DNA from: Selaginella tamariscina
Lineage: Eukaryota; Streptophyta; Lycopodiopsida; Selaginellales; Selaginellaceae
Direction of reading: 5' to 3'
Length of the DNA: 64,000 nucleotides
Assembly: GCA_003024785.1 (NCBI GenBank)
Contig: PUQB01000515.1
Location: 81,755 to 145,754, forward strand
Part shown: one piece after another, positions 2,351 through 60,200 of the stretch
How the letters are laid out: every line of letters starts with the position of its first letter
How positions within the stretch are numbered: the stretch's first letter is position 1
The notes under the pieces: generated by a model
What the model was told of the DNA's origin: nothing
What the model saw: the letters and a program-made list of their open reading frames with translations, nothing else
Databases searched by the model: none
Program-made: the position numbers and the translations under genes

Positions 2351-3546
2351 CAAGAACTTCCCCACATTGCAAACAACGTTACAGTTTCAAGATTAAAGAG
2401 TTAACAATGAAAATGCACAAGTGTGCGCCGAACGCCTTCACTATGCAAGTCTTCATTACTCAGTAAACTGAAAATGTAAACGTATGTTTCCAACATTACT
2501 CTTTCTGATAGATCATGCCATCTTCCAAAAGTTGCATTGATAGGGATGCAACATTAAATCCGTCTATTGCCAATATATTATTCTATCTTATTCTCATAAT
2601 CAAGTTAGTCGAGCTAGCTAACTTGAATACAGAGTGCGCTTTACAACTAACTAAGGTTTCATGTTATACTTTGTTCAAATCAAGGGACTTGAATTTAGTA
2701 AACTATTCACCTAATGTTACTTGTAGCTAGCATCATCAAAATATTGCAAACATCAGACAATACTTTGACTACATTGGATCTTCAAACCCATTGCTTAACA
2801 TATTTATCATATGTTAATATTTGACTTTCTGTTGTATTATAAGTTTATCACCATAGTTTACTTCTAGAGTTGCACTCTGGAAAACACACACTATAATGAG
2901 AGCTTATTTTACAACTTTTGTCAAAATGTAGTGTTCACTCTTATGTTTGAATATGCCCTTCTTTTGAAGTCAAAGACACACATTTGAACATAAGTCTTTC
3001 CCCGTTTGAACACTATTATTGGGCTTGTTATTGAATCTTGACTTACATGCAAGTTGTAACTAAAATGGGCATGGCTATAGTCCCATTTCCTAATAATTAG
3101 CAATTTTAGCTATTTAATTAGCATTTTCTAATATTAAAGGAATATTCTTTTATATGAAAAAGAATATTCTTTAGAATATTCTATTTTGTATTCTACCCTT
3201 TAATAAATTATAGCATTCATTGAACAAAAATTAATAACATTATAAAAGTAGAAGTATTAAATTATATAATATATTGCCTAATATAACAATTAAGGAAGAG
3301 CATAAGAGGTACATTATATAAATATTGATGTTGTTATTAAAATATTAATATTTAAATATAACATTATTAATTAAAAATTTGTAGTAGTAATAATATATAT
3401 ATAAATAAATCCTATAATAATATAGTCAATCTTCCATATCATTTTTTAAATTTATATAGTTAAGTAAACAATTTGGTACTATTATTAAAGAGTTTATAAT
3501 AATTATGAATATTAAATATATGATATTTTATAATTTTGTAATTGCT
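2350..3546. other. AT-rich spacer, no gene recognised
   Basis: Very AT-rich, with runs of TATA and ATTA between 3100 and 3540. Two small open frames (2515-2730 plus, 2921-3103 minus) have no recognisable features. It lies just past the 3' end of the minus-strand DUF7869-like gene, so an element terminus may lie here. I could not identify a terminal inverted repeat. Confidence 0.45.
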
Positions 3547-6500
3547 TTAAGCTTCAGAAAACATACATTCCCTTGCAGTTTTGTTAATCGTGACTTTATC
3601 AACGCTTCTTGACATCCACCCATATCGAATGGATTTAACATTTATAAAACATGCTGGGTCTTTTTGATTGGGAGACCATGTTTTCTCTAGGCATCCATTA
3701 TATCTTTCGCTCTCCTTCTCGTGTCGCCTTTTTTGTGGTTTGAACCATGCAACCTTAACAATACTATTTTTTGTGATTACTTCAGGTGTGTCGATAATTT
3801 GACCCATCCAAATAGGCTGATTATATGACGCATCTGGAGTAATGAGAACCATCATTAGTTTTTGAAGATCCTGGCAGCAATCAAAGTATGCTTTAGGTTT
3901 TTGGTTCCTTTGTCCAACAAAGTGTGGGGTTTGCACTTCCACATCACTACTGGCTTCTATGTCGTCTGTGCTCAGTGATGTCATTTCAATCTCCTCTCGC
4001 CACCTTGTTTTAGGCCAAAAAGGGTGTTGCAATTCTGTACTTGTGACAGTAGGCCCTTCCAACTCTCGAACAACAGTCTCCCAATAGTCGACCACATGCT
4101 TATATAGTTCTGAGTAACCAGTTGCCTTATCAGAATTCTTTGGCATCGATTTTTGAACCCATGCCACATATTTTTTGATGCCATCAATAATAACCTCTTG
4201 TTCCTTGAGCTGGGCACTCAATGGAATAGGGTCTGGTTGTCCTTCTGGGAGAAGTGGCTTTCCATCTCTCCACTTTTGAAGAGCATTAACCCTCTTTCGG
4301 TAACCACTCCTGCTCTGATGGCCGTAACTTGTACTGCATAATAGGTATACCATCTCGTATGGAGAAAAAGAATTGTAGCGGCACAAGGTGACCAACTAAA
4401 GAATCACTCCCTTCTTTTATATACTCCTTGAGAAATTTTTTGAAGTCTGGCACCTCAGTCACAAGCAAAGCACAACTTTTTTTGGAGATGCAATTTTCAA
4501 AAAGATTCATCATATGCGGTAAGGTAAGTGCACTTGTCCTTTTTGTAGAGTTGGAGACCTTGCTGAAGAACGCATCAATATCTTCATGAGTGTGACCAAC
4601 CATAAGGAAACTGAGCGTGATTGTTTCAAACACACCTTTGGCAACAAGCATTGACAAGTATGCTAGCACATATCTAGAAAATAAAAGTAAGTATGAGCTT
4701 GAGAAACCCTTAAGTAAAATGATTTACCTATTTTTGTTCTCGCCTGCACAATTATCCATCTGTAAAAGCAAATGACGAGGAAGCTTATTTGATGTTGAGG
4801 ACACATGTACACTATTTGAGCTAGATCCCTCCACTGAACCTGAACTCTCAACAGGGCCATCTGTTTTTTGTGCAGGTTGCTGACAATGCCTCTCATATTC
4901 CCAAGTAGCCTCAAGTGCAGACGTGTTCATGAGAGCATTATGTAAAGGTTGAAGGTGTTGTTTCTTCACTTTGAGATCACTGATAGGACTTGTCTGTGAG
5001 TGGGCTTCAAGGTTTCTGAAACACATGGCTAACGACCCAATAGTGAAATTGGAGTCGCTAGACCAATGTGGAAGTGAAAAGTGTCCATATGACTCACAAC
5101 CGTGTCCATGTGTTAGCACACCTGTCAATGAAATCGGAAGTTTCATGACATTTCCAAGGCACTTTGGTGTTGCAAAGAGCTTTGGAATGCTGGTCTTTGA
5201 ATGATCCATCTTGTCATGGATCAAGCACAGGTACTCTGATGGGCGTGACACAGAAAGCATGCGGTGTGCATAGTACTGAGACCGGCAAGTTTGTTGTGCA
5301 ATCATGTGGGCCTCCATCTTCTTTTGAATGGCAGTGATCTCCACCAAGGTTTTTGCACAAGCCTCTGCAGCCTTCAATGATGTACAAGTGTCACACTTGG
5401 AAAAGCTAGAGTGTTTTGCAATCTCCACATCCTTAAAATGAGTATTCCATATGTTGTTGAAGGTACCAGTGCAGATTGCTTGGAGCCCCATCAAACTGAG
5501 GCACTTGTTCACATGTTCACACAGCTTCAATTGAGTGTAGATTGAAGGCAAAACCTTGAGATTTTCCCTGACCCCTGCATTTGTGGTTCGGCATTTGTGA
5601 GGCATCCTGTCTGCATTTGCTTCCACAAAAGCCTTGAGTATCTCTATGGCTGCCATATGTGAGAGCGGGTTTTGACCAAGCGAGTGTTCCCATGACTGAG
5701 GTTCGCGCTCCATCTAGCCACTCATCCCTCCGACGGTAGAACGTGGTCTTTGGGATCCCGTATATACTGTACCAAGCTTTGAAGCAGATGGCCACCTTAT
5801 TAAATACCATGGATGTACTCTGATAACCTGTGTCCGAGGCCATTCCATCAATACACCCAGTTAGTGCAGCATATACAAACTCATGCCTTTGCTTTTGGGT
5901 GAGCATACGAAAGACATGTCTACATTGGGTAATTTCATTCCGGTCTGCCATCTGACAACACTTCTTCTTGCAACAGTCAATCGTGGAAATGCTCGTAACA
6001 CTTTCGGAAGATGTAGGATCCATCTTTACCCTCTTGCTGAAACTTGCAGGGGAAGATCTACAACCCATGAATCGCCTTTTTCTTACAATAGGACCAATGC
6101 AAGGAACCTCTTCAAATATGAGTTGTTCTTCCGGGTTGTTATTATTGAAATCCAACCCAGAATATGTTGAACCATCTTGCCGTCTTAATTCAGATGTTCG
6201 CCACCTCACGAGGGATCCAGGATACAAAGTGCCATTAGGTGAAACCTCTGTCACAACTACACCCACGAAGTCGGACCCTAGTTTCTCTTCTGACACTGCT
6301 TCCATTGGATTTATAGCTGTGATGATGCCTCTTCCGACTTCAATCTCACGAAGAAAGAGAATCACCTCATCCATCACAGCAGGCAAGCCATCATCTGGTA
6401 AACTCGTGCTACTATTTGTTTGTGACTCTGCATATTCTGTGTCAGCCTTGACTTCATCCAAATTCCACAATACAGGAGAACCCTCCTCAAATTCCATTCC

Positions 6501-6666
6501 CAGAACCTCAACATGCTTGAAATGGTGTTCACCCATACGTACACACAAGATCCTTGGGCAATATTGTGACATGATGCATTATTATCTCGAACTTCCACAG
6601 TTCCAGTGCCAACTATCTCGTTGTTCCGAAGAAGACATACTTTATCTCCAGTATTAACATATTGTC
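3547..6666 (-). pseudogene. DUF7869-like (DDE-nuclease-like) gene, frame-disrupted
   Basis: Reads right to left. The first visible exon begins at 6666, just after an AG acceptor, so a short upstream exon is expected. Order: two N-terminal modules with a hydrophobic-L-x(n)-V-G-x-G pattern (about 6650-6230); a basic stretch RKRRF; a cysteine cluster CCKKKCC (about 5975); a CDTC motif (about 5385); an acidic motif QMDNCAGENKN (about 4745); an intron of 54 nt (4674-4727, GT-AG, phase kept); then VGHTHEDIDAFFS (about 4570); and a C-terminal basic domain to the stop at 3547. D-N-C...NKN followed by GHTHxDID is the hallmark of plant proteins annotated DUF7869, which look like RNase H-fold nucleases. 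That function is inferred. About three frame changes (near 6540, 5705 and 4290) suggest a decaying copy or draft errors. It is divergent from the gene at 12482 and is preceded by a palindrome cluster. Confidence 0.7.
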
Positions 6667-6809
6667 CTGCACATAAATAATTGTGTTATTTATGATATCT
6701 GTTTATGCAATATTTCTAAGAAATCATAACTGCGGTTACTTAATAATATGCATGTGCAATAATACATAATTATGTTAGATAATATCTCATGTTTATTAAT
6801 ACAACTGAT

Positions 6810-7295
6810 GGGCGGGATTAATCCCGCCCACTCTCCCCCGAGGAGTCGGCGGGATTAATCCCGCCGCGACTCACCCCTCGGAGAGAGTCGGCGGGATTAA
6901 TCCCGCCACTCCTCCTGAGGAAGAGGGGGGGATTAATCCCGCCCTACTCTACGACGGAAGAGGGCGGGATTAATCCCGCCTAAACTCTCTCCGAAACTAT
7001 GATTTCAAAGAGATTCGGGATGAATCCTTCCCCAAATCCTTAAAACAGGGAAGTGTGGCGAGATTAATCCCGCCACCCTTCCTGCCTCCTAAAATGGTTG
7101 GAGATTAATCCCGCCGACAACTCTTTCTAATAAATTCAAGTAACTCTTATCAGTTGAGAAGTTATCGGCGGGATTAATCCCGCCGCTCTTTTTCAAGTGG
7201 CGGAGAAGCATTGCCGACGCCATAGAGAGATGGTGGCGGGATTAATCCCGCCACCTCTTCAAAGGCGAAAAAAAATGGCCGGATTAATCTCGCCG
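6810..7295. repeat. Palindrome cluster 1 (GGCGGGATTAATCCCGCC)
   Basis: About ten copies of an 18-bp perfect or near-perfect palindrome lie irregularly spaced in 485 bp. Exact 18-mers are at 6811, 6848, 6890, 6963, 7167 and 7235. Variants are near 6926, 7057, 7098 and 7277. Flanking bases often extend the dyad: 7232-7255 is a 24-bp perfect palindrome. The cluster begins about 145 bp upstream of the first visible exon of the minus-strand gene and is GC-rich inside very AT-rich DNA. It is likely a protein-binding array or a cruciform/hairpin-forming element. Either role is inference. Confidence 0.9.
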
Positions 7296-7900
7296 CCCTC
7301 GGTAACCAGAATATTAAGTTAAAGGATATTTAAACGGGATAAATCCCTAACAGAATATATTGTAATCCTAATGCATTCCTAAACCCTAAATTCTAAAATT
7401 TAAGAGAGAATGTAAGAGAGTGAATCTTTATAAATATATTTTAAATTTGTTTATAATATTACTTGTAAACAACATGAAGGCACCGTGCTTTCTATAAACA
7501 ATAGCGCACCCAATTTAATGTCGCTCCTGAGCTGATCACTAAGAAAGAAAAAGAAAATCTGAAAGAGTGAAAAATAAAGAACAAAGAAACCCTTGCCAGA
7601 GAAAAACCAGATCTGAATTTGAGTAGGAAATTAAATGCATTTTCAAATTTACATGTCAGACTGACATTACTTATGTCAGAAATTCAAAATTTTTGAAATA
7701 ACAAAAGAAAATTTAAGATGAGTTGAAACAATAACCGACATCTGACATATATACTCTCTAATTCCAATGAGTGTTTTAAAAGCATTTAATGTTATTCAAG
7801 TGCTTCAAGCTGTTTAATTATTAGAATTTTTGTAATGTTCTATCATTCTTAATATTCAAGTATATGTTATTAAGTTTATATATATATATATTATACACAT
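7296..7900. other. AT-rich spacer
   Basis: No coding signal. A degenerate copy of the palindrome centre may lie near 7333-7348. Otherwise this is AT-rich unique sequence between the palindrome cluster and the tandem repeats. Confidence 0.5.
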
Positions 7901-7914
7901 AAATAAATAAATTG

Positions 7915-8625
7915 ATATATTATTATGTATCATTTAAAATATATTCATAGTCTGTTTATTATTATTATTTTTAATTACTCGAGTAATTAATTTCATTTCC
8001 TACTATTAATGGGATATTCTTTATTTTTTTCTTAATATTCAAGATATTCCATATATAAACTTGATTATTCATAATTAAATTAGTCTTATTCTTAATTATC
8101 TCAGTAATTATTCTACATTTGTATATATTAATAGGATTTTCTCAATTAATTTGTTATTATTTCAAGAATATTCCTATTGTTAAACCTTATTATCATAAAT
8201 ATTAAATATATTATTTAAACTATATATGACTATATAAGATAAATATGTATATGTATAATTTAAAATATGTTCATAGTGTATTTAATTTCATTTTCTTAAT
8301 TACTTGAGTAATCAATCTTCTTTATATTAATGCGATATTCTTATTATTTACTTTATTCCAAGAATATTTCAATATTAACATGATTATCATTAATTAATTA
8401 GTTAATTATTTCAGTACTTGATCTACATTTATATATATTAATGGATTTTCTCAATTAATTTCTTATTATTTCAAGAATATTCTAATGTTAAACCCTATTA
8501 TCAATATTAAATATATATATTAAAACTATATATGGCTATATTATTAGATAAAATCATATATTATTATGTATAATTTAAAATATGTTCATAGTGTGTATAT
8601 TAATATTATTTTCTTAATTATTCGA
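7915..8625. repeat. Tandem repeat of about 325 bp, slightly over two copies
   Basis: The phrase ATTTAAAATATRTTCATAG recurs near 7931, 8257 and 8580, and the AT-rich sequence between copies matches over long stretches (for example the TCTCAATTAATTTSTTATTATTTCAAGAATATTC-type segment near 8137 and 8448). The period is about 325 bp. Non-coding, in the spacer between the divergent genes. Confidence 0.75.
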
Positions 8626-8819
8626 TGTTTGTTTTGCACATATATATATAACAGAATCATAAATTTATATATACACATGCACACGCATTAGAAGCATTTA
8701 CAAAGACACATATGCACAACATGCACATTGCCCTAACCAAACTTGAGAATTATATGTTGCTTCTTTATAAAAAACATCATGTTCGACACATGTATGATTT
8801 ATATGTACTCAGTCTGTGT

Positions 8820-9650
8820 GTATGTAACACATTGAATTTACACATGTAATATATATGTATGTCGTGTGTATACACGTGTGTATATATAGTGTACTATTAT
8901 ATGCAATGTGTACGATTTTCATTTGTTAACACTCATCTCTTCTCTCATACATCACAGTGTCACTATGCATAATCCTTCTCTCATACACACACCATGCATG
9001 ATCATGATCCATAATATGTAGCCTGTCTCTTCTTCTCATACATACACACCATGCATGATCATGATCCATAATGTAGCATGTCTCTTCTCTCATACATACA
9101 CACCATGCATGATCATGATCCATATAATCCTGTCTCTCTCTCATACTACACACCATGCATGATCATGATCCATAATATGTAGCCTGTCTCTTCTCTCATA
9201 CATACACACCATGCGTGATCCATAATATGTACTGATGTTACTATTATGTAATATGTAAATTAAATGTATATTTGTGTATACACTCCTCCTCTCATACATA
9301 TACACCATGCATGATCCATCCTAACCTTAAACCCTATGTAACACATTGAATTTACACATGTAATATATGTATGTCTGTGTGTATACACGTGTGTATGTAT
9401 ATGTGTGTACTAATATTGCAATGTGTATGAATTTAATTTGTTAACATCTTTCTCTCTTCTCTCATACATACACACCATGCATGATCCATGTAAATGTACT
9501 GACTCTCTTCTCTCAAACATACACACCATGCATGATCCATAATATGTATTGTCACTCTTCTTCATACATTATGTACACACCATACATGATCCTGTACTCT
9601 GTCTCTCTAATATAATATGTATTAATATGTATATATGTCTATGTGTATAA
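8820..9650. repeat. Duplicated block of about 515 bp with a CATGCATGATC minisatellite
   Basis: The segment starting TATGTAACACATTGAATTTA at about 8820 recurs at about 9333. Inside each copy is a minisatellite with a repeated unit of about 50-57 bp containing ACCATGCATGATCATGATCC or a shortened form, preceded by CTCTCATACATACACAC. I see about nine units (near 8990, 9047, 9101, 9150, 9207, 9302, 9475, 9526 and 9577). CATGCATG and GATCATGATC are themselves palindromes. Open frames through this stretch are repeat artefacts. Confidence 0.8.
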
Positions 9651-9939
9651 TACTATGTGTGTATATATGTATCGCTGCACGTGAAACTTTAACATTCTCA
9701 TGGACACACACGTGTTAAACCCCTGCATGATATTTATTCTTGAGGTGTATGTGATATACCCACGCACACGCACACGCTGATAATATAATGAAAGAATATT
9801 CGTTTAGGGGCGAATCTATAGTTTATTCTTTTTAGGGTTTAAGTAATTCTTAGAAGGAATATTCGATTAGGGTTATAATATATTCCATTCCTTTTAGGTT
9901 TAAGTATATTCCTAGGGTTGTAAGGCGGCGCGGCTTGAA

Positions 9940-10613
9940 ATCTCCTTCTCTCTCTCACACAGGTGAGAATCTCTCTCTCTCACACGCACACTCCTCTGAG
10001 TTTATTTATTTATTTTTATTTCACATAATATTTATATGTGTATGTATCTTATAATATAATTTAGATCTCTATCTCTCGCACACAACACCACACTCGTATA
10101 CATATACACACACACATATATATATATATTATCCTTCCTCTCTTCTTCTTCTCTATAGATCTCTATCTCGCGCACACACACGTACACTCGTATACATATA
10201 CACACACAGATAATATATATATATTATATATATATNATATATTTCCTTCTCTCTCTCTTCTCTATAGATCTCTATCTCTCGCACACACACGCACACTTGT
10301 ATACATATACACACACAGATATATATATATATATATATATCTCTGTGTGTGTTTGTGTTTGTGTATCTGTATAATTTTATTAATTTATTAATTTTATCTC
10401 TTGCACACGCACGCACACTCCTGTTTATCTGTATGATTTTATTTGTTTCGCTCACACACGCATACTCACGATATACATACACACACACACACACACACAC
10501 ACAACATATATATATACCTATATACATATAATATACATATATATATTATGTGTACCAGTATCTGTATAATTCTATTTATTTATCTATTTCTCGCACACAC
10601 ACGCACACTCCTA

Positions 10614-10677
<64 letters not shown>

Positions 10678-11130
10678 TATGTGTGTGTGTGTGTGTATCT
10701 GTTAATTTTATTGATTTGTTAATTGTATCTCTCGCACACACACGCACACTCCTGTATATATTATATGTGTGTGTGTGTGTTTTTATCTGTATGATTTTAT
10801 TTGTTTCACACGCAACACACGATTACATATACACACATATATATATACCTATGTACATATATATATACTATATTATGTGTACCAGTATCTGTATAATTTT
10901 ATTTATTTATCTATTTCTCGCACACACACGCACACTCCTATATATATATATACACACACATAAATATATATAATTTTATTGATTTGTTTGTTTATCTGTA
11001 TGATTTTATTTGTTTCACACACGCATACACACGATATACATATAATTTGTGTATCAGTATAATTTTATCTGATTTGTCTATCTCTGGTACACACACGCAC
11101 TCTCCTACACACATATACATATATATAAAT
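9940..11130. repeat. Microsatellite-rich tandem array (CA/TA, CTCTC, GCACACACACGCACAC)
   Basis: Runs of CA, TA, CATA and CTCT alternate with a recurring block reading roughly ATCTCTCGCACACACACGCACACTCC followed by CTGTATRATTTTATT. The block recurs every 100-250 bp. It includes an N at 10236. Apparent reading frames here are low-complexity repeats, not genes. Confidence 0.85.
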
Positions 11131-11142
11131 ATATATGTGCGT

Positions 11143-12146
11143 AGCGGCGGAATTAATCCCGCCGCTATATGGTGAGACGTGTGTAGCAGCGGGATTAATC
11201 CCGCCGCTATATGGTTAGACCCTCGGCGGCGTGATTAATCCCGCCGCCCTTCAGGCAGGCTATTCCGTTAGCCTCTAGATGAGCGGCGGGATTAATCCCG
11301 CCACGTACGCATGCCCTGTGTGGAATTGGGCGGGATTTATCCCGCTGCCGAAGACCTGCCTGAAGGGCCTAGGCAGTGGATTAATCCCACTCGATTTACG
11401 CAGGACATTGGCGTCCGCGGATTAATCCCGCCGCCTAGGGCCTGAGTAAAGGGCCTGGGCGCGGGATTAATCCCGCTGCCCTGCGCGGAATCGGGCGGGA
11501 TTTTCCCGCCGCCAAAGGCCTGCTTGAAGGGCCTAGGCGGCGGGATTAATCCTGCCCGATTGTGCAGGGAATTGGCGTCCGACGGGATTAATCCCGCCGC
11601 CTAGGGCCCGAGTGAAGGGCCTGGCGGCGGGATTAATCCCGCCGCCAAAGGCCTGCCTAAAGGGCCTAGGCGGGATTAATCCCGCCCGATTTCGCGCAGG
11701 GAATTGGCGTCCGGCGGGATTAATCCCGCCGCATAGGGACCGAGTGAAGGCCCTGGGCGGCGGGATTAATCCCGCCGAGCCTTCAATGCCTGTTGGAGGA
11801 ATGAATCCCGCCACCCTTCCTTTTTCTCCATTGGTGAGTCGGACCAATCCCAAACGTTTCTGTCTGAGACGTAGAAGGTTTACAACATACCAATGGAGAG
11901 AACTGGGAAGGGTGGGAAATTCATTTAACCATCCCTTACATGGTGGGCGAGATTAATCCCGCCTCCTTTCTGGAGTCACTGAAGGGGTGTGCCAAATAAA
12001 TCCTGCCCAGTTCTCTCTGAGACCGAGAAGGGTGGCAAGATTAATTCCGCACTCCCGTTCAAGGCCTCCAGAAAGGTGGCGAGATTAATCCCGCCCACTC
12101 TTTCAGGAGGCATTGAAGGGGTGGCGAGATTAATCCCGCCGCACCT
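11143..12146. repeat. Palindrome cluster 2 (GGCGGGATTAATCCCGCC)
   Basis: About twenty copies of the cluster-1 palindrome in 1 kb. Exact 18-mers start at 11285, 11626, 11669, 11713 and 11759; the others have one to four changes. 11623-11646 is a 24-bp perfect dyad. Between about 11363 and 11780 three palindromes are arranged in a higher-order repeat of about 130-165 bp, marked by recurring AGGGCCTAGG, GCAGGGAATTGGCGTCC and AAAGGCCTGCYT. The last copy ends about 335 bp before the ATG of the plus-strand gene. Together with cluster 1 it brackets the spacer between the divergent genes. Confidence 0.9.
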
Positions 12147-12253
12147 TCCATGTGAATATATATGTGTATTAGTATATATAAGTTGCATATCTCATTTTAT
12201 TTACTTTTATCATCTTATCATAATATTTCGAGTAAAAGCTAGGAACTATGTAA

Positions 12254-12340
12254 AACTGTCCAGAGCTCACATTTGTGGTGGTTCTAAAACGAAATGTTAT
12301 CTTTCTTTTGCACTAGCACAAATGTGAGCTTTGGACAGTT
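12254..12340. repeat. Long-armed hairpin (24-nt arms, 39-nt loop)
   Basis: Left arm 12254-12277 and right arm 12317-12340 are reverse complements over 24 nt with a single change that would be a G-U pair in RNA. It sits between palindrome cluster 2 and the start of the ParB-like gene. If transcribed it would fold like a small-RNA precursor. It could equally be a regulatory dyad or a tiny foldback element. Confidence 0.75.
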
Positions 12341-12481
12341 AATTCCGTCACTTCTCTCTGTGTATTATTTTTGTATATTCGGGTTTATACAAGTGTGTGT
12401 GCGTTTTTATATGATTTGTATTCATAGTGTATTATTTTGCAGAAGGACGATTTAATTAAACAAGGAGATCGAGTCATTAGT

Positions 12482-15400
12482 ATGGAGTCGTCGTCAAATT
12501 CTGGGTAAGAATTAAAATAAAATCTGTTATACTCGGATATGTGCTTGAACTAATCATTTTTGTATTCAGATGTGGAATTGAGGTGACATTAAAGACGAGA
12601 GCAGGAGAAGAGATGGGCAGGGGGATTCTGGAATCAACTTGGCCATATTTCAAACTAAACGGGAAGCGCATTGGAACAACCATGGTTGCTGTCAAACTAA
12701 CCTCTGTCACATCGCATGGACAAGCAAAACAATGGAAAGTGGGTGTGCTAGTCAAGCATCCGAAAGCATGCTGAACCCAGATTGAACGATGCTCGACACA
12801 TATGCCTTGTTCCATCCAATGTCACGTTCTCGGATCCAGAGGTCGCCAGTTACAACATTAATTTCGGGTGGTTTTGTCGACTTGTGGATAATGACGTTCA
12901 CGTGTTCACTAATGATGTTGACCTTGGAGTTCTTCTTCAACTCAACGAAAGCCCATCTATGGAGGGGATCCACTGGATGTCTACTTCGAAGATCTTCAGA
13001 CTCATCGAGTAGGTGTATTTTCAGGAGATATTGCTTCACAATACAGAAAATCACAAGTGGAGCAATCGTCCCTCTTCACATTGAAGAAGAACACAGCGAC
13101 ATCATAAAGGAGATTGAGAGGGTGGCTTGGTCTCAGGTTCTTTACAGATCACGTTCAATTTGCTTAGCAAATTTCGGGAGCTGGAAGAGTGTGCCGAGAA
13201 CATTAGAACAGCATCAATCGGGGATCACACATGTTGATTCGGATCGTAGAAGAAAATCATTAGTCGTTTTGTCAGCTGCACCTGTGGCGTCCCATGCTGC
13301 AATAAGCCACAAGGAAATGATGTTGGATGATAGATTTACAGTGTAGGGTTAAGTATTGCAGCGTCAACCCAAACTTCAATTACAGGCCACTCAATCAGGA
13401 ACGTGTAGCTGAGCTCATGGAGAAGATGAAGGACGACAATTCTTACACCGTTCCACATAATGCTGTTTTGTGCGCATACTACGAGAGAAACAAAGGCGCT
13501 GACAAAGTGTGGATCACAACACCGGAACAAATGAGGAAGGTTCAGACGGAGAATAGAAAATCAGTTAAGTACTACATCATTAGTGGCCAGCACACAATAA
13601 CGGCAGCCCAACGACTTCTCGACGAACACAACAAAGGAACGATGGCAACAAAACTTTCCGAGCATACCCGTGAGAAGCTGACGAAAAGATCGGCGTTTTT
13701 AGCGAAGCCGAATCTCACAATCGAGCAGTACCATAAGTTATCGGCGGAATGGGACGCTGCAGACACCAACCACTACAACAGCAAAATATGCGAGCCGTGT
13801 GGGAATCTCTTCAGCGACCACAAAGAGCTACCGCAGGGAATACACAATCTGCGGACTACCGGGTAAGCAAATTGTTTGGGCGGGATTTATCTCGCCGGTA
13901 TATTAATCTGTCTTTTTCTCAGAGAGTTGAAGAAATTGTAGCAGTTGATTTTGCCCAGGTGGGCGGGAAGGAAACATCCTTTTTGATGATGTTGATTTCT
14001 TGTCCCGAGGATAGGATCTTTGCAAATGGTTGGGGATTATGGAATCCTTTGCAAAAGGAACACTGAAGAAGAAGCAGACAAGTGAAGTGGAGCCCTCAGA
14101 GAAGTCTGCAAAGAAACCCAGTAAGACGCCGAAGGCTAAGTCTGTTCAATCTATAAAGGATGTAGACAACGATTTCAAGCTCACATGGTTGAAGCCTTTA
14201 AATGGAACAACGATGGAGGAGATGGAAGTCTTGGCTGATTTGGTGATTGATGGCAAATTACAGATTAACAACAGCAGCCCCACCTCTCCTTTTCATCTCA
14301 AGGCAATGGAGTTGAAGACGGTCAGGCACTTCAAGGAGTGGTTGGGAATACACTGCCACAAACTGGGTTGGATTTCGGCTTCAACATACGAAGAGGTCAG
14401 CAAATATTTGCATGTGACAAATGATGATATGCTTGTCGAATGGGTGAATCAATCGGAAGATCTGGGCAAGAATCTATTGCACGCCAACGCCAAAAGGAGA
14501 ACATTGCGATGACGCCTTCTCTTATGGCAGTCCTTCAGCAGCGGAGAACCGAGTTGAACCTTATAAAGGAGGATGCTACGAATCACGACAAGCCCTACAG
14601 ATGTTTGTTGTTGGATTCGGAGACTTTATGGGGTACCATCACTGCTTGTAGGAAACCGTTTCAATTGTTCGTGATGGATCGGCGGGTGTCAAAAAATCCT
14701 TCGACAGACAGGACACTAGAGGATTTGGTGGAGAAACTTAGCCGTGCAAGCATGTACAAAGAAGGTATTTATTATTGAATTCATACTTGCACTCTTGACT
14801 GATATCTACGTTTTCAGGTATTTATTTCTTGATTCTTGCTCATGTCACCGATACCTTTGCCTTCTCTTTGCCAAGAGGAATAAACATCGTTGGACAGGAT
14901 TTTATATGAATGATGCTGATCCGAAGTGCATTGATTCGGTTGTTCACTTGGTTGTTAGGAATGCGCCAAACAATTTCAAACTTCCAAATGACTGGCCAGG
15001 CATCTGTTTGCACTCCAACGGCCCTGAACCTCCATCCGATACACCGATAGGTAGAGTGACGTATTCGGCAATGTACGTTATCCAAACATCACAAGTCAAG
15101 CGGCACGGAGCATCGTCAACTTGATCAGGGGTCCTCACAGTGATGCGTGGGTTTTTGACTACTGCACTAGGGGGTCCGTCTTGAAGGAGTGTTACCTTCG
15201 GCATACATGTGTATTTGCCGTTGAAAAGGATAAGACCATGGTTGAGGACCTGAACAAGTGGATAGATAGGTTCTCAACTGATACCCCAACGAATCCATAA
15301 AGGAGTATTTGAGAAAGTTCCCTCCGATAAGTGCGATAGCTCTGAAGACGAATCTGGTTCAATGTCGGAGTCTGAGGACGAACTTCAATCAGATATTAGA

Positions 15401-15560
15401 CCGGAAGTTATCTCGAGGAGTACAGAACATTCGCACACTCCATTACCCATGGAAACATCAATAGAAGATAGAAGATCTTGAACCATCTCACAAGCGGCTT
15501 AGACCTTCTTCGCCTCACTCAGAAGGTAATAGCGAAGAAGAATTGTTAATGAGTTCTTAG
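12482..15560 (+). pseudogene. ParB-like plus degenerate amino-methyltransferase gene, frame-disrupted
   Basis: ATG at 12482; a 23-nt first exon splices (donor 12505, acceptor AG 12568-12569) into an N-terminal module with VTLKTRAGEEMGRG. About 13345-13640 encodes a ParB/sulfiredoxin-like domain: NPNFNYRPLNQERVAELMEK, then YIISGQHTITAAQRLLDEH in the position of the ParB 'G-Q/E-R/H' box. An intron at 13863-13922 contains one copy of the palindrome. A lysine-rich linker follows (14060-14140), then a methyltransferase-like part: a LLLDSETLWG region, an intron near 14765-14817, GIYFLILAHVT, and further on a segment WVFDYCTRGS...FAVEKD that resembles the SAM-binding motif of N6/N4 amino-methylases (canonical DFCSGSGS...EKD). 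The C-terminus is acidic, then KRLRP and stop at 15560. Several frame changes indicate decay or assembly error. Catalytic DPPW/Y is not evident. ParB-methylase fusions are known in phages; the function here is inferred. Confidence 0.6.
13878..13896. repeat. Isolated intronic copy of the palindrome
   Basis: A one-off copy with two changes (GGGCGGGATTTATCTCGCC) lies 16 bp after the donor of the intron following the ParB-like exon. It is the only copy I found outside the two clusters. Confidence 0.7.
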
Positions 15561-15668
15561 AGTGACGAATAGTTGTAAATGAGTGTAACATAAGGCATTT
15601 TTGTATATTTCGTTTATATTTGTACAGAAAATAAATTCTCAAGGATTAATGAAGCTTTTAGTTCAAAC

Positions 15669-17020
15669 ATGGGTCACACATTAACAAGGTAAATAATATA
15701 CCTTGATAATTTTAAGGTCAGCTAATTATCATTTTGCAGATGTAATGAAACAATTGAGAACATGGATTTTCAGCATTGGCATGAGGTAAGAGAGGGGTTT
15801 GGCGACAATTTCTTGTGCCACATGTCAGAATGACAGAGTTCATGCAGGAAATGGATAATAATGCAGCTCAAAACATCGTTACCATGGGGGCCACTTCAGT
15901 TTTTTCATCATCATTTTTATTGGCTTCAGTTCCGAAATCAATTTCTTCAGCGCATGCAATATCTGAATCTTGTAAGGATGATGTACAATTAAATGATGAA
16001 GGGATAGGCAACGAGATAGTGCAACGGATAAATGTGAAAGGGAGCAAACAAGTGATTTGCAAAGTATTCAAGAGGCAACGCTATCCATGTTACTCATGGC
16101 CATATTGTGTTGTTGGATGTCAATGGTGTTCTGCTTCATCGACAAAGGCCCGAGGATAGGAAAAAAGAAATCAAACAAGGAGATTTCATTCCTTGTCATG
16201 GTAAATTTCGATATGATATTATTTTTCGTCCAGGGTTGGATCGTCTCTTTCAAAAGCTTAAGGAGATGGGTGCGCTTGTGGGGATTTGGTCATGCATGCA
16301 GATTCATAACTTAACACCGCTGTTGAATTTGCTTAAGAAACATTGTAGTGTTGCAGAAGAGGTGATTCGTAAAGATTGGATTTTTGACCAGCGAATATGT
16401 TATAAACCTCTCGAATTTCACAATATAAGAAAGGAAAGCAAGCCATACTTCTTCAAGAATGAAAGAATAATTGGGACTCATGGGGAGATCAGTCGCTTAA
16501 GGATAATGAAGAATGCACATATCTTAGTAGTAGACGACTCTCCTCAGAAGGCTATGCTCAACCAAAACATTGCTTGTATTCATCCAATCACTTTCGATCC
16601 ATATTCTGATACGATATCATGGATGAGCTAGTGAACTACTTGGATACGTGCCTCAGAAAGAAGAATCTCGAAAATTTTTGTGAGCAGTATCCACCGTATC
16701 ATACATTTCCTGAAGCTTTTCTTTCTCGTGATTTTGAATTTTATAAAATGAAGGATAGCAACCGGGCGCTTTATAATATTATTCTTAAGGAACGTCATTT
16801 TTAGATGAGCCTTTATGCAGACCTGGTCTTATTACATCTTATGTATTAACAAGGATGGCAACTCCCAATTGCATTCGTGAGAGTGTTAGGTGGTGGCAAC
16901 AACATCAAGATATTGACCAAAATGATTTGATTAATCCGGAGAGTGATGATTTAGACAAAATGAGGAGATTTCTCTGTATGGTTAGGAAGAAAGTATTTAT
17001 AAATAAATTAACATGTTGAT
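15669..17020 (+). pseudogene. FCP1/NIF-type HAD phosphatase-like gene, frame-disrupted
   Basis: The proposed start ATG at 15669 opens a short exon (15669-15688), followed by an exon at 15740-15785 and, after a 62-nt intron (15786-15847), a long exon. The catalytic domain begins near 16100 with LLDVNGVLL (plant variant of the FCP1 DxDG-T/V motif), then IFRPGLDRLFQKLKEMG, GIWSCMQIHNL (motif II region) and AHILVVDDSPQKA (motif III, DD). This is the FCP1-homology/NLI-interacting-factor fold, which usually dephosphorylates phosphoserine in proteins such as the RNA polymerase II tail. The first catalytic Asp is kept; the second is Asn, as in several plant relatives, so activity is uncertain. Frame changes near 16060-16083, 16620 and 16797 point to a damaged copy or unrecognised short introns. 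It follows the ParB-methylase gene by only about 110 bp in the same direction. Confidence 0.75.
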
Positions 17021-18600
17021 AAGAAATGATTTCATTTGTAATTATGTTTGATAGTATTTCTTCATTATTGTAAACTATTTTTAGAATAATATGAATATTC
17101 TAAGATATTTTAGGAATATTCCTTACTAAGTAAGGTTATTGAAGGATTAATTAATTAATTAATTAATATTTAAGGCTTAATTACATATTAATTAAATGAT
17201 TAATTAATAATTAAAACTTAAGTATTAATTAGTAATTTATTTTATATTCCCATTTTCACGTATCATGCCCACTTTAGTTACAACATGCATAATATTACAA
17301 ATGCAAGTTGCACAGTGTTTTTGTCATCTTGTATCCTTGGACATGACTTTGAGAAGTTCGCACGGGTTTAGAGAGGTAGAATTCGTCTCTTGGCCTCCTA
17401 GGTCTTACATAGGTGGCCAATATTGGATCACAGACAAGCTCCATGTGTGTGCTTATGTTGGAGGTGGAGGTGGAGTGCATGCCCAATACCTCTTGGATGC
17501 ATATCATAACGACCTACCAAGAGTTCTCAACACTTGTTCTTGTCTTGAATAGTTCTTTTTGGGATACTTTGAGTGCCTACACCCTTGAGGATATAGAGAT
17601 CTCAGAAGGAAAGTTGGACATCCGTCTGCCAAGTACTTGGTCACTAAATATTATCTTAATTCGGGCAAAAGCAATCAAAGTGCACGCACCACTCGTGAGG
17701 AGAATGGAGTTGCAGTTGTGTATTGTGCCATATTTTGTTTATAGAAGGCACGAGCCTTGAGGTAGCAAAGTTTACAACACTGGATTATGTGACATTTATA
17801 GGGATCCCCTTTCCAAGTTGCAAACTTTGCTAGTAGGAAAATGTTATAATAAAGAATGGAGTTTGAAATTCCAATGCTCAAGCACTTCCTAAGCGTGATT
17901 GAGGAAAGGTGTCCCCTTCACCATGCATTTGAAGGAAATGCACCACCTTAAGCATATTATTAATTTGCAAGGATTGTTGTGCACATTAATTTGTCATCTC
18001 ATAGGCTCATATTTTAACTACACTTTCTAGTTTCCCTTTATGATATTTAATTTTGTGAATTATTGTGGTCAATTTTTGGGAAGTATATTTAGGAATTGTT
18101 CTGAAAATTATGTTTATATTGTGGTAAGGATGGACACCGAATTGCTAGTGCCCAAATTGACAACGAATTCAAGTTATGACATGCCTAAAAGAATGGGAGT
18201 CGTCTGAGTCTTGATCAAGTTGAAGAAAATCGAATAATTGAATGCGCTACAATGAATATGCTCATGTTAGAGGTAATGCATATAAATGTAGTATGTAATG
18301 TTTCATGTAAAACTTATTAGTTGTTTATGTATAGAACTTATTTCAAACTTTTGACTTTGTGTGAATGCTTCCTGGGACTTTAATGAACCCGGAGATCATC
18401 CTGAAAATGCTGGAGACGATCCTATACTGCAGGAGCAGAAGTAGTATTGATGAGTCACTTTGGGATGTAAGGTTTTAGTATCGTTATGTCTATATTGAGT
18501 TCGTGTGCATTGGCCAAGTTGTCCATCCCATTATCATGCTTTCTATTTTCATTTCTATTTCCGTCTCCGTCTCCATGGGAGCTTCTACACAAACTTATGC
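17021..18600. other. Unrecognised region with short open frames
   Basis: AT-rich to 17260, including a TTAATTAATTAATTAAT tract at about 17150. Overlapping open frames at 17265-17552 and 17413-17760 have no family I recognise, and their codon pattern is not convincing. A short frame near 18370-18445 ends in an acidic peptide before a stop. I call no gene. Confidence 0.4.
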
Positions 18601-57248: not shown

Positions 57249-60200
57249 ATCCTCCCCCATTCCTTGTCCTCAAGGGCAGTATAATTTACTCAATTGGTCT
57301 TGTATCGTTAGCCTCGTACATCCACAAAGAATCTACCCGAGACAAGTTCCTTATGAGTAATATCTTTAGTTGGCTAACATGAAACACTGGGTGCACCCTC
57401 ACTCCTTTTGACAGTCGTAATCGATATGCCACCTTACCAATATGCTCTAGAATCTCATATGGACCTGAGTACATGGGAGACAACTTATCATTATGTCCCT
57501 TTCGTAAGGCCACAATAGTGTTCCTTACATGTGTGTCAAATACCACTCAGAGATATACATAATCTCTCACCTGGAACTCTCGGAAGCTTCTGTGCTCATT
57601 AGTAAACTTAATAGCTCGATTCTAAGCTACTTGTAAGTTCTTCTTGCACAAACTCTAAATGTTCTCAAGCTCAACACTCATATCTTTAGCTTCCTCATTC
57701 ATGTTGCCTTGAGCCTTCTTATTTGCTAACCCCAGCTCAAAAGCTATCTTGAGATGCCGTCCAAACATAGCATTGGCTTTCCTTCTGGTTAATAGTGCAC
57801 CTTAGCATATCTTCCAAAACTTGGTTCACCCTCTCTATTTGCCCATCTGTTTTGGGATGATTTATTACACAACTTAAGCTTCACTTTCATGCACTTAGAA
57901 AAGCTTCTTCATAAGCTAAAAGTGAACTTAGAGTTCCAATCACTTACAATATCATTTGGAAATATGTGGATAGGAAATACATGTTATAAATACATTGTAG
58001 CCAGTTCAAATGCATTCACATTCTTCCCTAAGGGAAATAACTTGACAAACTTTGTCAACTGTCCACAATGACCACACATGTTCATTCTGCCTTTGTGTCC
58101 TTGGCAAATGGGTGACAAAGTCCATAGAGATACTGCCCATCGCCTGTCTGGAATAGGCAATGGTACTAATAACCTGGTTTCTTGGCACCTTTACTGTGAC
58201 ACTTGTCACAAGTCCTAGTACTCTATGATATCAGCTTTCATATTCCTCTAGTAAACCTCCTTTGATCAATCATACGTTTTCTCCCCCAAAATGACCAGCC
58301 TCCGGGCGATCATGATGAAATATAGTACCTGGTTGATCAAATGGTCCACACGAGGAAGGTACACACGGCCATTGTAGTACAAAACCCATCCTGAAATGAG
58401 AATGGTGGCTCTAGTGTCCTTGAGCTCCTGCACCTCGGCGTATTGTGCTTGAGCATGTTGAACTACTTGGCTAAACTCACTGACCGTCCTTGTTAATGCA
58501 TTACATAAGCGTGTTTGGAATTCTCCCACTACTGTGGCTCTCCTAACGTGTGACAAAGCATCTGCCACCACGTTTCTTTCCTGCGCGATGCTCAATAGGA
58601 AATTCGCCAAACTCCATGAGCTTAACCATCCAGCGAGCTTGCCGAGAGTTTAACTCTTTCTGTGTGAACAGATACACCAAAGGCTTGTGATCTGTAAACA
58701 CCTTGAAACTTGCACCATAAAGATAGTGCTCCAAATCGTAATGCATTAACAATAGCCAGTAGTTCTTGCTCATACGTTGAGTACCGTTGCTCTGCAGGAT
58801 TCAAAGTACGACTCTTAAGCAATAGGCCTTCCCTCTTGCATAAGTACAGCTCCAATGGCCACTCCACTTGCATCACACGATACCTCATAAGGCTTAGAGG
58901 GATCTGCAATACATAAAACTGGTGCACGTACCAAAGCTTAAAGAAACTGCTCTCCTCTGAAGCACTCCATGCAAAGGGAACGTCCTTCCTCAGCAACCTA
59001 GTTAACAGAAGCTTTCTTGGCATAATCCTTGACATACCGATAATAACCAGCCATGCCCAAGAAACTCCGTAACTCTTGTGCATTGCTAGGAACTGGCCAT
59101 TGCTCCACCACTGCCACCTTCTGGATCAGTCTTCACTCCACTTGGCATCACAATGTGACCCAATACCACTTCACTTGAGCAAATGCACATTTGCTCTTCT
59201 TTGCATAGAGCTTGTTCTCCCATAGCAATTGAAGAACTCTCCACAAATGCTCCACATGCTCCTTTATTCTTACTGTAAATAAGAATATCGTCGAGGAAAT
59301 CTCCACAAATCATGCAAGTAGCCCAAACACCTTAGTCATCAACTGAGTGAATGTGGCTGGGGCATTTGTTAAGCAAATGGCATAATAGTGAACTCAAAAT
59401 GCCCAAAGTAGTGTTGAAAGCAATTTTGTATATATTTATCTCCTTCACAGCAATTTGATGATACCCACTATGCAAATCTATCTTGAAACTCTGGCACCAG
59501 ATGATCCATGATAGTATCCACACATGGCATGGGCATTATGTCCTTCATTGTTTGCTTGTTGAGAGTCTATAGTCTATGCACATCCTTATGGTGCCATCTT
59601 TCTTCTTAACAAGCAATATTGGTGCACCAAATGAAGACTTGCTCAGTTGTATGAAGCCATATTCCAAAGCTCATCACTTGTTTTTAACCTCTTTCTCCTC
59701 AACATGGCTCAGTAGGAATAGTTTACGATAAATGGCTTTCATACCCTATTCCAACACAATCTCATGCTCCACACCTTTGCAGGTGATAAGCCATGAGGTA
59801 GCTCAGGAGGGAAGACGTCAGCAAATCCTCAAGACAACTTGCACAGCAGCTTTGCCTGAGGTGACATTAGAAGAATCTAACTCACGTATATATATCAAAA
59901 GACTTGATCTTCTTTATTACAGAGATATTTCTTCAAAGACATAGCAAAAAGATACTTGTTTGGAGACTCAAGCCTTGTTCCAAACCAAGTGTCTTTCACT
60001 CCACTGTACTCAAGCTTCACTCACTTGATGCTCCACTTGATCTCAGGTCCACACTCCAGCCAGCTCATCCCAAGGATGAGGTCCACACGCTAGTTCCGCA
60101 AGAAGAAAGTCTCCACCAGTTGAGTTTTACCAACTTTCAATTGTAAAAGCATTCCAGCTCTGCGTGACAGTAGCTAGCCCTCAATCTCATATTGAGGCAT

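Follow-up and report, generated by a model that had tools for sequence, protein, structure and literature searches.

A probable large cut-and-paste transposon with a DUF7869 gene and palindrome arrays in Selaginella tamariscina

The arrays of VANC motifs in Arabidopsis VANDAL elements occupy non-coding DNA upstream of genes and within introns, and are described as changing through the gain and loss of tandem repeats (PMC5735166). In VANDAL21, such arrays are found both within introns and ahead of a gene, and expression of VANC lifts silencing (PMC5735166, PMC10398659). CACTA elements carry subterminal repeats that are bound by TNPA (PMC2613891). The Sola superfamily is described as having 4-bp target-site duplications (TSDs), a DDD transposase, variable terminal inverted repeats (TIRs) and lengths up to more than 15 kb (PMC10741241), and Sola1 is reported to be present in Physcomitrella (PMC9033089). 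Fungal DNA transposons can carry TET/JBP genes, which are thought to counter silencing (PMC12730594). Here we report on a 64,000-nucleotide stretch of the Selaginella tamariscina genome (contig PUQB01000515.1, positions 81,755 to 145,754; hereafter the window) that contains a DUF7869 gene (gene A), an orphan gene (gene B), a phosphatase gene (gene C) and two arrays of an 18-bp palindrome. It seems quite probable to us that these parts make up one copy of a large, autonomous-type cut-and-paste plant DNA transposon, which would be mobilized by the product of gene A and would have an element-made protein acting at its arrays.

This element resembles VANDAL elements in its dense arrays of a short motif upstream of genes and in introns, in its fast repeat turnover and in its possession of several genes (PMC5735166, PMC10398659). 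However, its motif is an 18-bp palindrome, Pfam scans gave no VANC-like or Mutator-type domain, and the protein that binds its arrays is as yet a candidate. Clustered repeats are also found in the CACTA elements En/Spm and Tgmt*, and CACTA has the kind of element-made DNA-binding protein that we propose here (PMC2613891); in addition, a TNP1/En-Spm-like module occurs in three of 36 aligned relatives of gene A. Unlike CACTA elements, the Selaginella element lacks CACTA termini (its ends begin ATGCA), duplicates 4 rather than 3 bp of target, has interior, promoter-proximal arrays instead of subterminal ones, and yielded no Tnp2 domain in Pfam scans. By description it agrees with Sola in its 4-bp TSDs, in the apparent D-D-D layout of gene A, in its large size and in the occurrence of gene A relatives in bryophytes, although the cited sections of the accounts of Sola mention neither accessory genes such as B and C nor palindrome arrays (PMC10741241, PMC9033089). 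The element fits Sola as compared by description, but we do not file it there. The extra gene in the fungal transposons encodes a dioxygenase (PMC12730594), whereas gene B belongs to no recognized family. The combination of a DUF7869 transposase, an orphan gene B, a phosphatase gene C and palindrome arrays did not appear among the results of our literature searches, which covered open-licence PMC papers.

Ends, target sites and copies of the element

We read about 20 kb around each of ten sister copies. Sequence likeness to the window starts near position 3047 and stops near 17290 in the six copies that have both ends in reach (C575, C494, C3, C838, C502 and C993); the remaining four (C738, C25, C511 and C336) are rearranged, truncated or gapped. 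Because 27-bp TIRs lie at these shared ends, the unit measures 14,244 bp, exceeds the interval from 3547 to 15560 and takes in a third gene. A sequence-only reading of the window had proposed a single unit of about 12 kb; the single unit stands, whereas its true size is 14.2 kb, the interval first proposed being short at both ends and leaving out gene C. The features of the window copy are as follows.

3043 to 3046: left flank TTAC; the right flank is AATATTAC, and this copy lacks an exact adjoining 4-bp duplication
3047 to 17290, no strand: whole transposon, 14,244 bp, with ends common to sister copies and counted genome-wide
3047 to 3073, plus strand: left TIR, ATGCAAGTTGTAACTAAAATGGGCATG, two mismatches relative to the right TIR; position kept in sister copies
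3547 to 6680, minus strand: gene A, encoding a DUF7869 protein that is a probable D-D-D transposase; its N-terminal part includes a possible TNP1/En-Spm-like module; start of the gene approximate
4674 to 4727, minus strand: gene A intron of 54 nt with GT-AG borders, whose removal joins ENKNR with YVLAYL; same intron in C575
6811 to 7350, no strand: palindrome cluster 1, 10 cores (at most one mismatch), directly upstream of gene A
7351 to 11145, no strand: AT-rich spacer with micro- and minisatellites, evolving fast between copies
11146 to 12140, no strand: palindrome cluster 2, 17 cores (at most one mismatch), upstream of gene B
12482 to 15560, plus strand: gene B, orphan, about 950 aa, four exons (borders set by eye), frame-shifted in this copy
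13879 to 13896, no strand: GGCGGGATTTATCTCGCC, a variant of the palindrome within gene B intron 2, present also in C738 and C838
15830 to 17005, plus strand: gene C, NIF-type phosphatase (PF03031, E 9.3e-11 in the window and 2.4e-12 in C838); borders approximate
17264 to 17290, minus strand: right TIR, read on the minus strand as ATGCATGTTGTAACTAAAGTGGGCATG; position kept in sister copies

Five sister copies are complete (C575, C494, C3, C838 and C993): each has both ends, which enclose gene A, gene B and the two palindrome clusters; the gene B of C575 lacks its first half. This finding supports the earlier proposal that the locus is one mobile unit and not two unrelated genes. Two unrelated genes that share palindromes by chance or by way of a satellite would be compatible with the minisatellite-like differences in palindrome number among similar copies, but order, orientation and ends are constant across the complete sister copies and 95 of 100 listed palindromes map to the element (see below), such that we give this explanation practically no credence.

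Exact 4-bp TSDs flank eight of the 14 copies that have both ends and readable flanks, namely C575 (GTGT), C494 (AATG), C3 (AAGT), C838 (TTTC), C993 (GAGT), C147a (AAAA), C147b (ATTT) and C224 (TCTA). Chance would be expected to produce about 0.06 such copies in 14 (1 in 256 per copy). Outside this count are C738, C25, C511 and C336, as well as C414 (cut off by its contig), C102 (left flank with N) and C3b (right end not found). When the flanks of C993 were joined with a single GAGT, the sequence matched at least 40 places in the genome at about 90% identity (1195 candidates, best 40 scored), and all 40 listed matches cover the junction. Two of these places were read, and both are gap-free with one GAGT each. 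Therefore, C993 represents an insertion into another repeat that was accompanied by a 4-bp duplication. TIRs on dispersed copies, together with a fixed-length TSD and an empty site, are among the hallmarks of class II TIR transposons, and the shared ends and target duplications that the sequence-only reading had suggested looking for were recovered when loci were aligned.

These same observations bear on the possibility that the locus is an endogenous virus or a virus-derived block, as its 14-kb size and several genes might suggest. The short inverted ends argue otherwise, as do the 4-bp TSDs and the empty sites; no viral hallmark domain scored above cut-off in Pfam scans; and viral contigs yielded no confirmed relative, either of gene A (by alignment) or of gene B (with a piece of 274 aa). 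We rejected a virus-derived block on the last of these grounds and consider a viral origin very improbable.

The 300.7-Mb assembly (1391 contigs) contains many further copies. Allowing two mismatches, element ends occur 2,097 times in forward and 1,995 times in reverse orientation (4,092 in all), compared with 0 + 0 for a reversed-pattern control. The first 100 listed ends, which are all free of mismatches and lie on contigs C1 to C91, form 19 convergent neighbouring pairs less than 25 kb apart. Twelve pairs span 13.8-15.0 kb, one spans 15.4 kb and six span 6.7-22 kb; in 15 of the 19, a left-type end is paired with a right-type end. A 2-kb piece of gene A gave 41 listed matches of 99-100% identity (2437 candidates, best 40 scored). 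DUF7869 matches number at least 300 (best 150 listed) and the 274-aa piece of gene B has at least 141 (copies of the main exon), both counts being lower bounds for which the best candidates alone were scored.

Listed copies of gene A share a contig with 28 of the 141 listed B genes. Half of these 28 have gene A between 6 and 14 kb upstream (observed range 9.1-10.9 kb), and in all 14 cases the two genes are divergent, as they are in the window, where gene A on the minus strand and gene B on the plus strand face away from each other just as the sequence-only reading had described. The number 14 is a floor, given that the gene A rows are the best 150 and 40 listed.

The gene A sequences of ten copies carry 0.1-1.0% substitutions relative to the window, and the element has probably been active recently. 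Gene B falls into two classes, one with 0.1-0.6% substitutions from the window (C494 and C502) and another with 4.1-4.8% (C838, C738, C993, C3 and C575). Since gene A differs by at most 1% while gene B splits in this manner, the histories of A and B within one element may differ, and exchange between element copies is possible.

Several loci depart from the common structure. At C84:1300-8100 (locus L054) there is a 6.7-kb derivative in which gene A is the sole gene between two left-type ends, without a TSD. Beside C738 (positions 845-1080 of the joined stretch, locus L009), an AT-rich element of 236 bp carries degenerate forms of the transposon's inverted repeats and is possibly a miniature relative; an exact TSD was looked for at this element and none was found. 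An apparent division of copies into '1-2001' and '296-2001' types was discarded after C85, the one '296' copy checked, proved to reflect alignment breakage and to have the same left end.

Palindrome arrays

The pattern GGGATTAATCCC, with at most one mismatch, has 27 sites in the window, and all fall in two clusters at 6814-7347 (10 sites) and 11149-12137 (17 sites), whereas 100 shuffles averaged 0.09 sites and never gave more than 1. One such cluster precedes each of genes A and B, in agreement with the sequence-only reading, and none occurs elsewhere in the window. What is conserved is an 18-bp palindrome, GGCGGGATTAATCCCGCC, with an ATTAAT centre. In a set of 436 sites drawn from the window together with ten sister stretches, conservation extends to the outer GGC/GCC bases and the flanks are not conserved: positions -2 to 0 and 13 to 15, which had no part in the picking of sites, carry 1.0-1.4 bits, versus 0.40 bits or less in the flanks. 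Spacing within the same stretches is also regular, with 249 of 382 intervals below 120 bp measuring 40-49 bp (mode 44-45). Both arrays hold the same place across the complete sister copies. The number of palindromes varies between otherwise alike copies, which fits arrays that grow and shrink; six complete elements hold 7 to 28 exact sites each (mean 15.2).

All 11 exact palindromes of the window lie within the element. Genome-wide, exact matches to GGCGGGATTAATCCCGCC number 27,128, and the reversed-pattern control gave 0. We mapped the first 100 listed sites, which all reside in the first 2.09 Mb of contig C1, and scored a site as beside the element if it lies no more than 12 kb inward of a listed end or 9 kb from a listed DUF7869 gene. 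Ten of the 15 listed ends on C1 were used, the other five being past the last listed palindrome. By this measure, 95 of the 100 palindromes (15 of 17 clusters) are beside an element end or a DUF7869 gene, although such zones make up at most about 11% of the C1 stretch by our estimate. The joint occurrence of both genes and the palindrome at other loci of this genome, which the sequence-only reading had proposed as a check, is borne out by the arrays as well as by the gene pairs. We rejected a chance origin of the palindromes in view of the shuffles and the control, and a satellite independent of the genes in view of the mapping of these 100 listed sites.

Dividing the genome-wide palindrome count by the mean per complete element, or the 4,092 ends by two, yields about 1,800-2,050 full-length equivalents. 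This is a rough, upper-side guess that truncated copies push upward; at such numbers the element could account for several per cent of the genome. A palindrome present in some 27,000 copies suggests a transposon-specific DNA-binding control system.

The main rival interpretation assigns the arrays to a host factor such as E2F. Each palindrome would then present two E2F-like half-sites (GGCGGGA/TCCCGCC), whose CCCGCC core resembles plant E2F sites, and the element would exploit cell-cycle transcription and spread thousands of host sites. There is a precedent in the E2F sites amplified by Brassicaceae transposons (PMC12595863, citing Henaff 2014). However, the conserved unit is the full 18-bp palindrome with its ATTAAT centre, which exceeds one E2F site, and 95 of the 100 listed sites cluster with this single element. 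We therefore regard use of a host factor as unlikely, while still the foremost alternative to binding by a protein of the element's own.

The observed/expected ratio of CpG is 0.82-1.30 in the arrays and 0.61-1.10 after the palindromes are masked, compared with 0.42 in gene A and 0.44-0.55 in the flanks. Genes B (0.80) and C (0.75) are also high, and thus a high CpG content does not single out the arrays. The spacer between the arrays includes a minisatellite at 8971-9594, with units of about 50-57 bp that contain ACACACCATGCATGATC.

The three genes

Gene A is interrupted by frame shifts in the window but is open in C575 across its one intron, encoding 1,035 residues. The DUF7869 model (PF25273) matches one window exon with E 1.2e-27 and the spliced C575 read with E 9e-47; the latter scores 159.6 bits against a curated cut-off of 26 bits. 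We found 66 relatives, with named carriers comprising two mosses (Physcomitrium patens and Ceratodon purpureus), one liverwort (Riccia sorocarpa) and two bivalves (Mytilus edulis and Mya arenaria). Among the 36 relatives that were aligned, the motifs HDKMD, QLDN...NKN and GHTHEDID are invariant or nearly so. D195 and D353 are invariant, and D393 and D395, which lie 40-42 residues past D353, are near-invariant. This order of aspartates suits an RNase H-like transposase, and judged from its sequence gene A is likely to encode one. The sequence-only reading had left the choice at nuclease or transposase, and a transposase now appears likelier than another kind of nuclease.

The ratio of nonsynonymous to synonymous substitution rates (dN/dS) is 0.20 for exon 1 of gene A (C575 versus C502). 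The TNP1/En-Spm match among the aligned relatives has a best E of 0.00066; in the element's own gene A the match is below cut-off (E 0.17), and Pfam listed none for the full C575 read. A precomputed PF26133 domain is present on many DUF7869 relatives, and Pfam scans of proteins P0004 and P0018 did not return it. A search of open-licence PMC papers for DUF7869 gave none.

Genes A and B share a small module (residues 122-158 of A and 22-58 of B), with an alignment score of 58; in each of two versions of the test, 0 or 1 of 1000 shuffles scored as high. Both proteins had been said to start with this module. Its presence in both holds, as does its position near the start of B, but in A it resides within the N-terminal part and not at the start. 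A second candidate at the extreme start of A has no likeness to either module (416 and 388 of 1000 shuffles were as good).

Gene B consists of exons split by GT-AG introns, with several frame shifts in the window. Exons 2-4 are open for most of their length in C102, with frames of 478, 304 and 248 residues and perhaps one shift close to the C-terminus. Many of the 141 listed copies likewise have the 478-aa exon open. We rejected the idea that the window copy represents a dead gene on the basis of this open exon in sister copies. Because the frame shifts vary from copy to copy, assembly indels or copy-specific damage fit better than a dead gene. The copy-specific shifts in genes A and B suggest residual indel errors in the assembly. 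Between subfamilies (window versus C102, 445 codons), dN/dS of gene B is 0.16, with 40.5 changes over 282.7 synonymous sites and 26.5 over 1052.3 nonsynonymous sites (Fisher p 8e-13). Therefore, the protein was retained while the element spread.

No relatives of gene B were found among 5.8 billion proteins, either with a composite sequence (none at E <= 0.001, 5,073 candidates) or with the open exon (none at E <= 10, 7,528 candidates), in a search whose word-based candidate picking and length limits may miss distant relatives or split gene models. The label of ParB-methylase given to gene B by the sequence-only reading finds no support in comparisons with profiles. Pieces and exons of gene B matched no ParB or methylase model in Pfam (only sub-cut-off matches to other families), in PHROGs (only phrog_21535, function unknown, E 0.029) or in NCBIfam. 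Searches of PDB sequences likewise matched no ParB or methylase, the hits being homocitrate synthase (E 1.5) and a designed repeat protein whose value of 2.8e-6 is a sum over nine insignificant repeats. The ParB-like piece, which was the piece searched against a phage collection, had no relative there. The catalytic motif of N6/N4 DNA methylases is (D/N/S)PP(Y/F/W); inspection by eye revealed no DPPY-type motif in gene B, only DSETLWG at a possible place. The presumed likeness to ParB and to a methylase is at the level of motifs (ISGQHTITAAQ and DYCTRGSVLKECYLRHTCVFAVEKD), and no profile supports it. Among the titles listed in the literature for ParB together with transposons in ferns or mosses, none was relevant.

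These results weigh on two related explanations. In one, gene B would encode a protein of ParB type, for which the palindromes would be loading sites like parS or sopC, and which would spread over the element to exclude silencing or to hold the ends together. Its appeal is the ISGQHTITAAQ box that follows an NPNFNYR...VAELMEKM stretch, presumably ParB-like, and the 44-45 bp spacing mode, which evokes sopC, the tandemly repeated centromere of the F plasmid. Given that no ParB model in Pfam, PHROGs or NCBIfam was matched, that no phage relative of the piece was found and that the match among PDB sequences was to homocitrate synthase (E 1.5), we think this decidedly improbable. The other would make the element a lineage of an unnamed superfamily, with a DUF7869 transposase and a full recognition system of its own. 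An orphan DNA-binding protein, ParB-like in its core, would load on palindrome arrays resembling parS/sopC, some 27,000 sites per genome, and spread to exclude silencing or to pair the ends; we rate this as improbable.

Gene C lies inside the right end and aligns fully or partly in seven of the ten fetched copies in addition to the window. In C838 it has a 403-aa open frame. Well outside the element, an open frame on the minus strand at 58622-59125 resembles, by eye, the RNase H region of a retrotransposon.

Proposed mechanism and significance

We favor a model in which the gene A product, an RNase H-like D-D-D enzyme as far as its sequence indicates, would act as the transposase, cutting at the inverted ends to give a 4-bp staggered insertion. 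A sequence-specific protein of the element's own would dock at the arrays in front of both genes and at the single palindrome in a gene B intron. By binding, it would drive or protect the expression of A and B and would mark the element as its own target, much like VANC at the motif arrays of VANDAL elements or TNPA at the subterminal repeats of CACTA; gene C may be a captured helper of phosphatase type. That an element-made protein binds the arrays is less certain than the assignment of gene A, and is suggested by analogy. Gene B is the best candidate for this role because it is a conserved gene without another evident one.

Several observations weigh against this model. Exact TSDs are absent from six of the 14 copies (the window, C502, C21, C233, C660 and C91), among which C502 has a damaged left end and the flanks of C233 and C660 agree at three of four bases. 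Fourteen of the 28 B genes have no listed gene A at the expected place, and three of the 28 have one at an equal distance on the downstream (wrong) side. Two of the 17 palindrome clusters (five of the 100 sites) lie away from any listed end or gene A. The reading frames of both A and B are broken in the window copy, motifs are what point to an RNase H fold in A, and the dN/dS of gene C (0.33) derives from only seven changes. Finally, because gene B has neither a relative at the E values given above nor a known domain, its DNA binding is deduced from the company it keeps and from its conservation; it is one candidate binder, beside gene A or a host factor.

If the model holds, the uncharacterized DUF7869 family gains a probable function as a transposase. 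Moreover, a motif of about 27,000 copies that in the listed sample almost always accompanies one transposon, and a conserved orphan gene that travels with it, would make the question posed by VANC, of how a transposon recognizes and protects its own copies alone, testable with a different protein.

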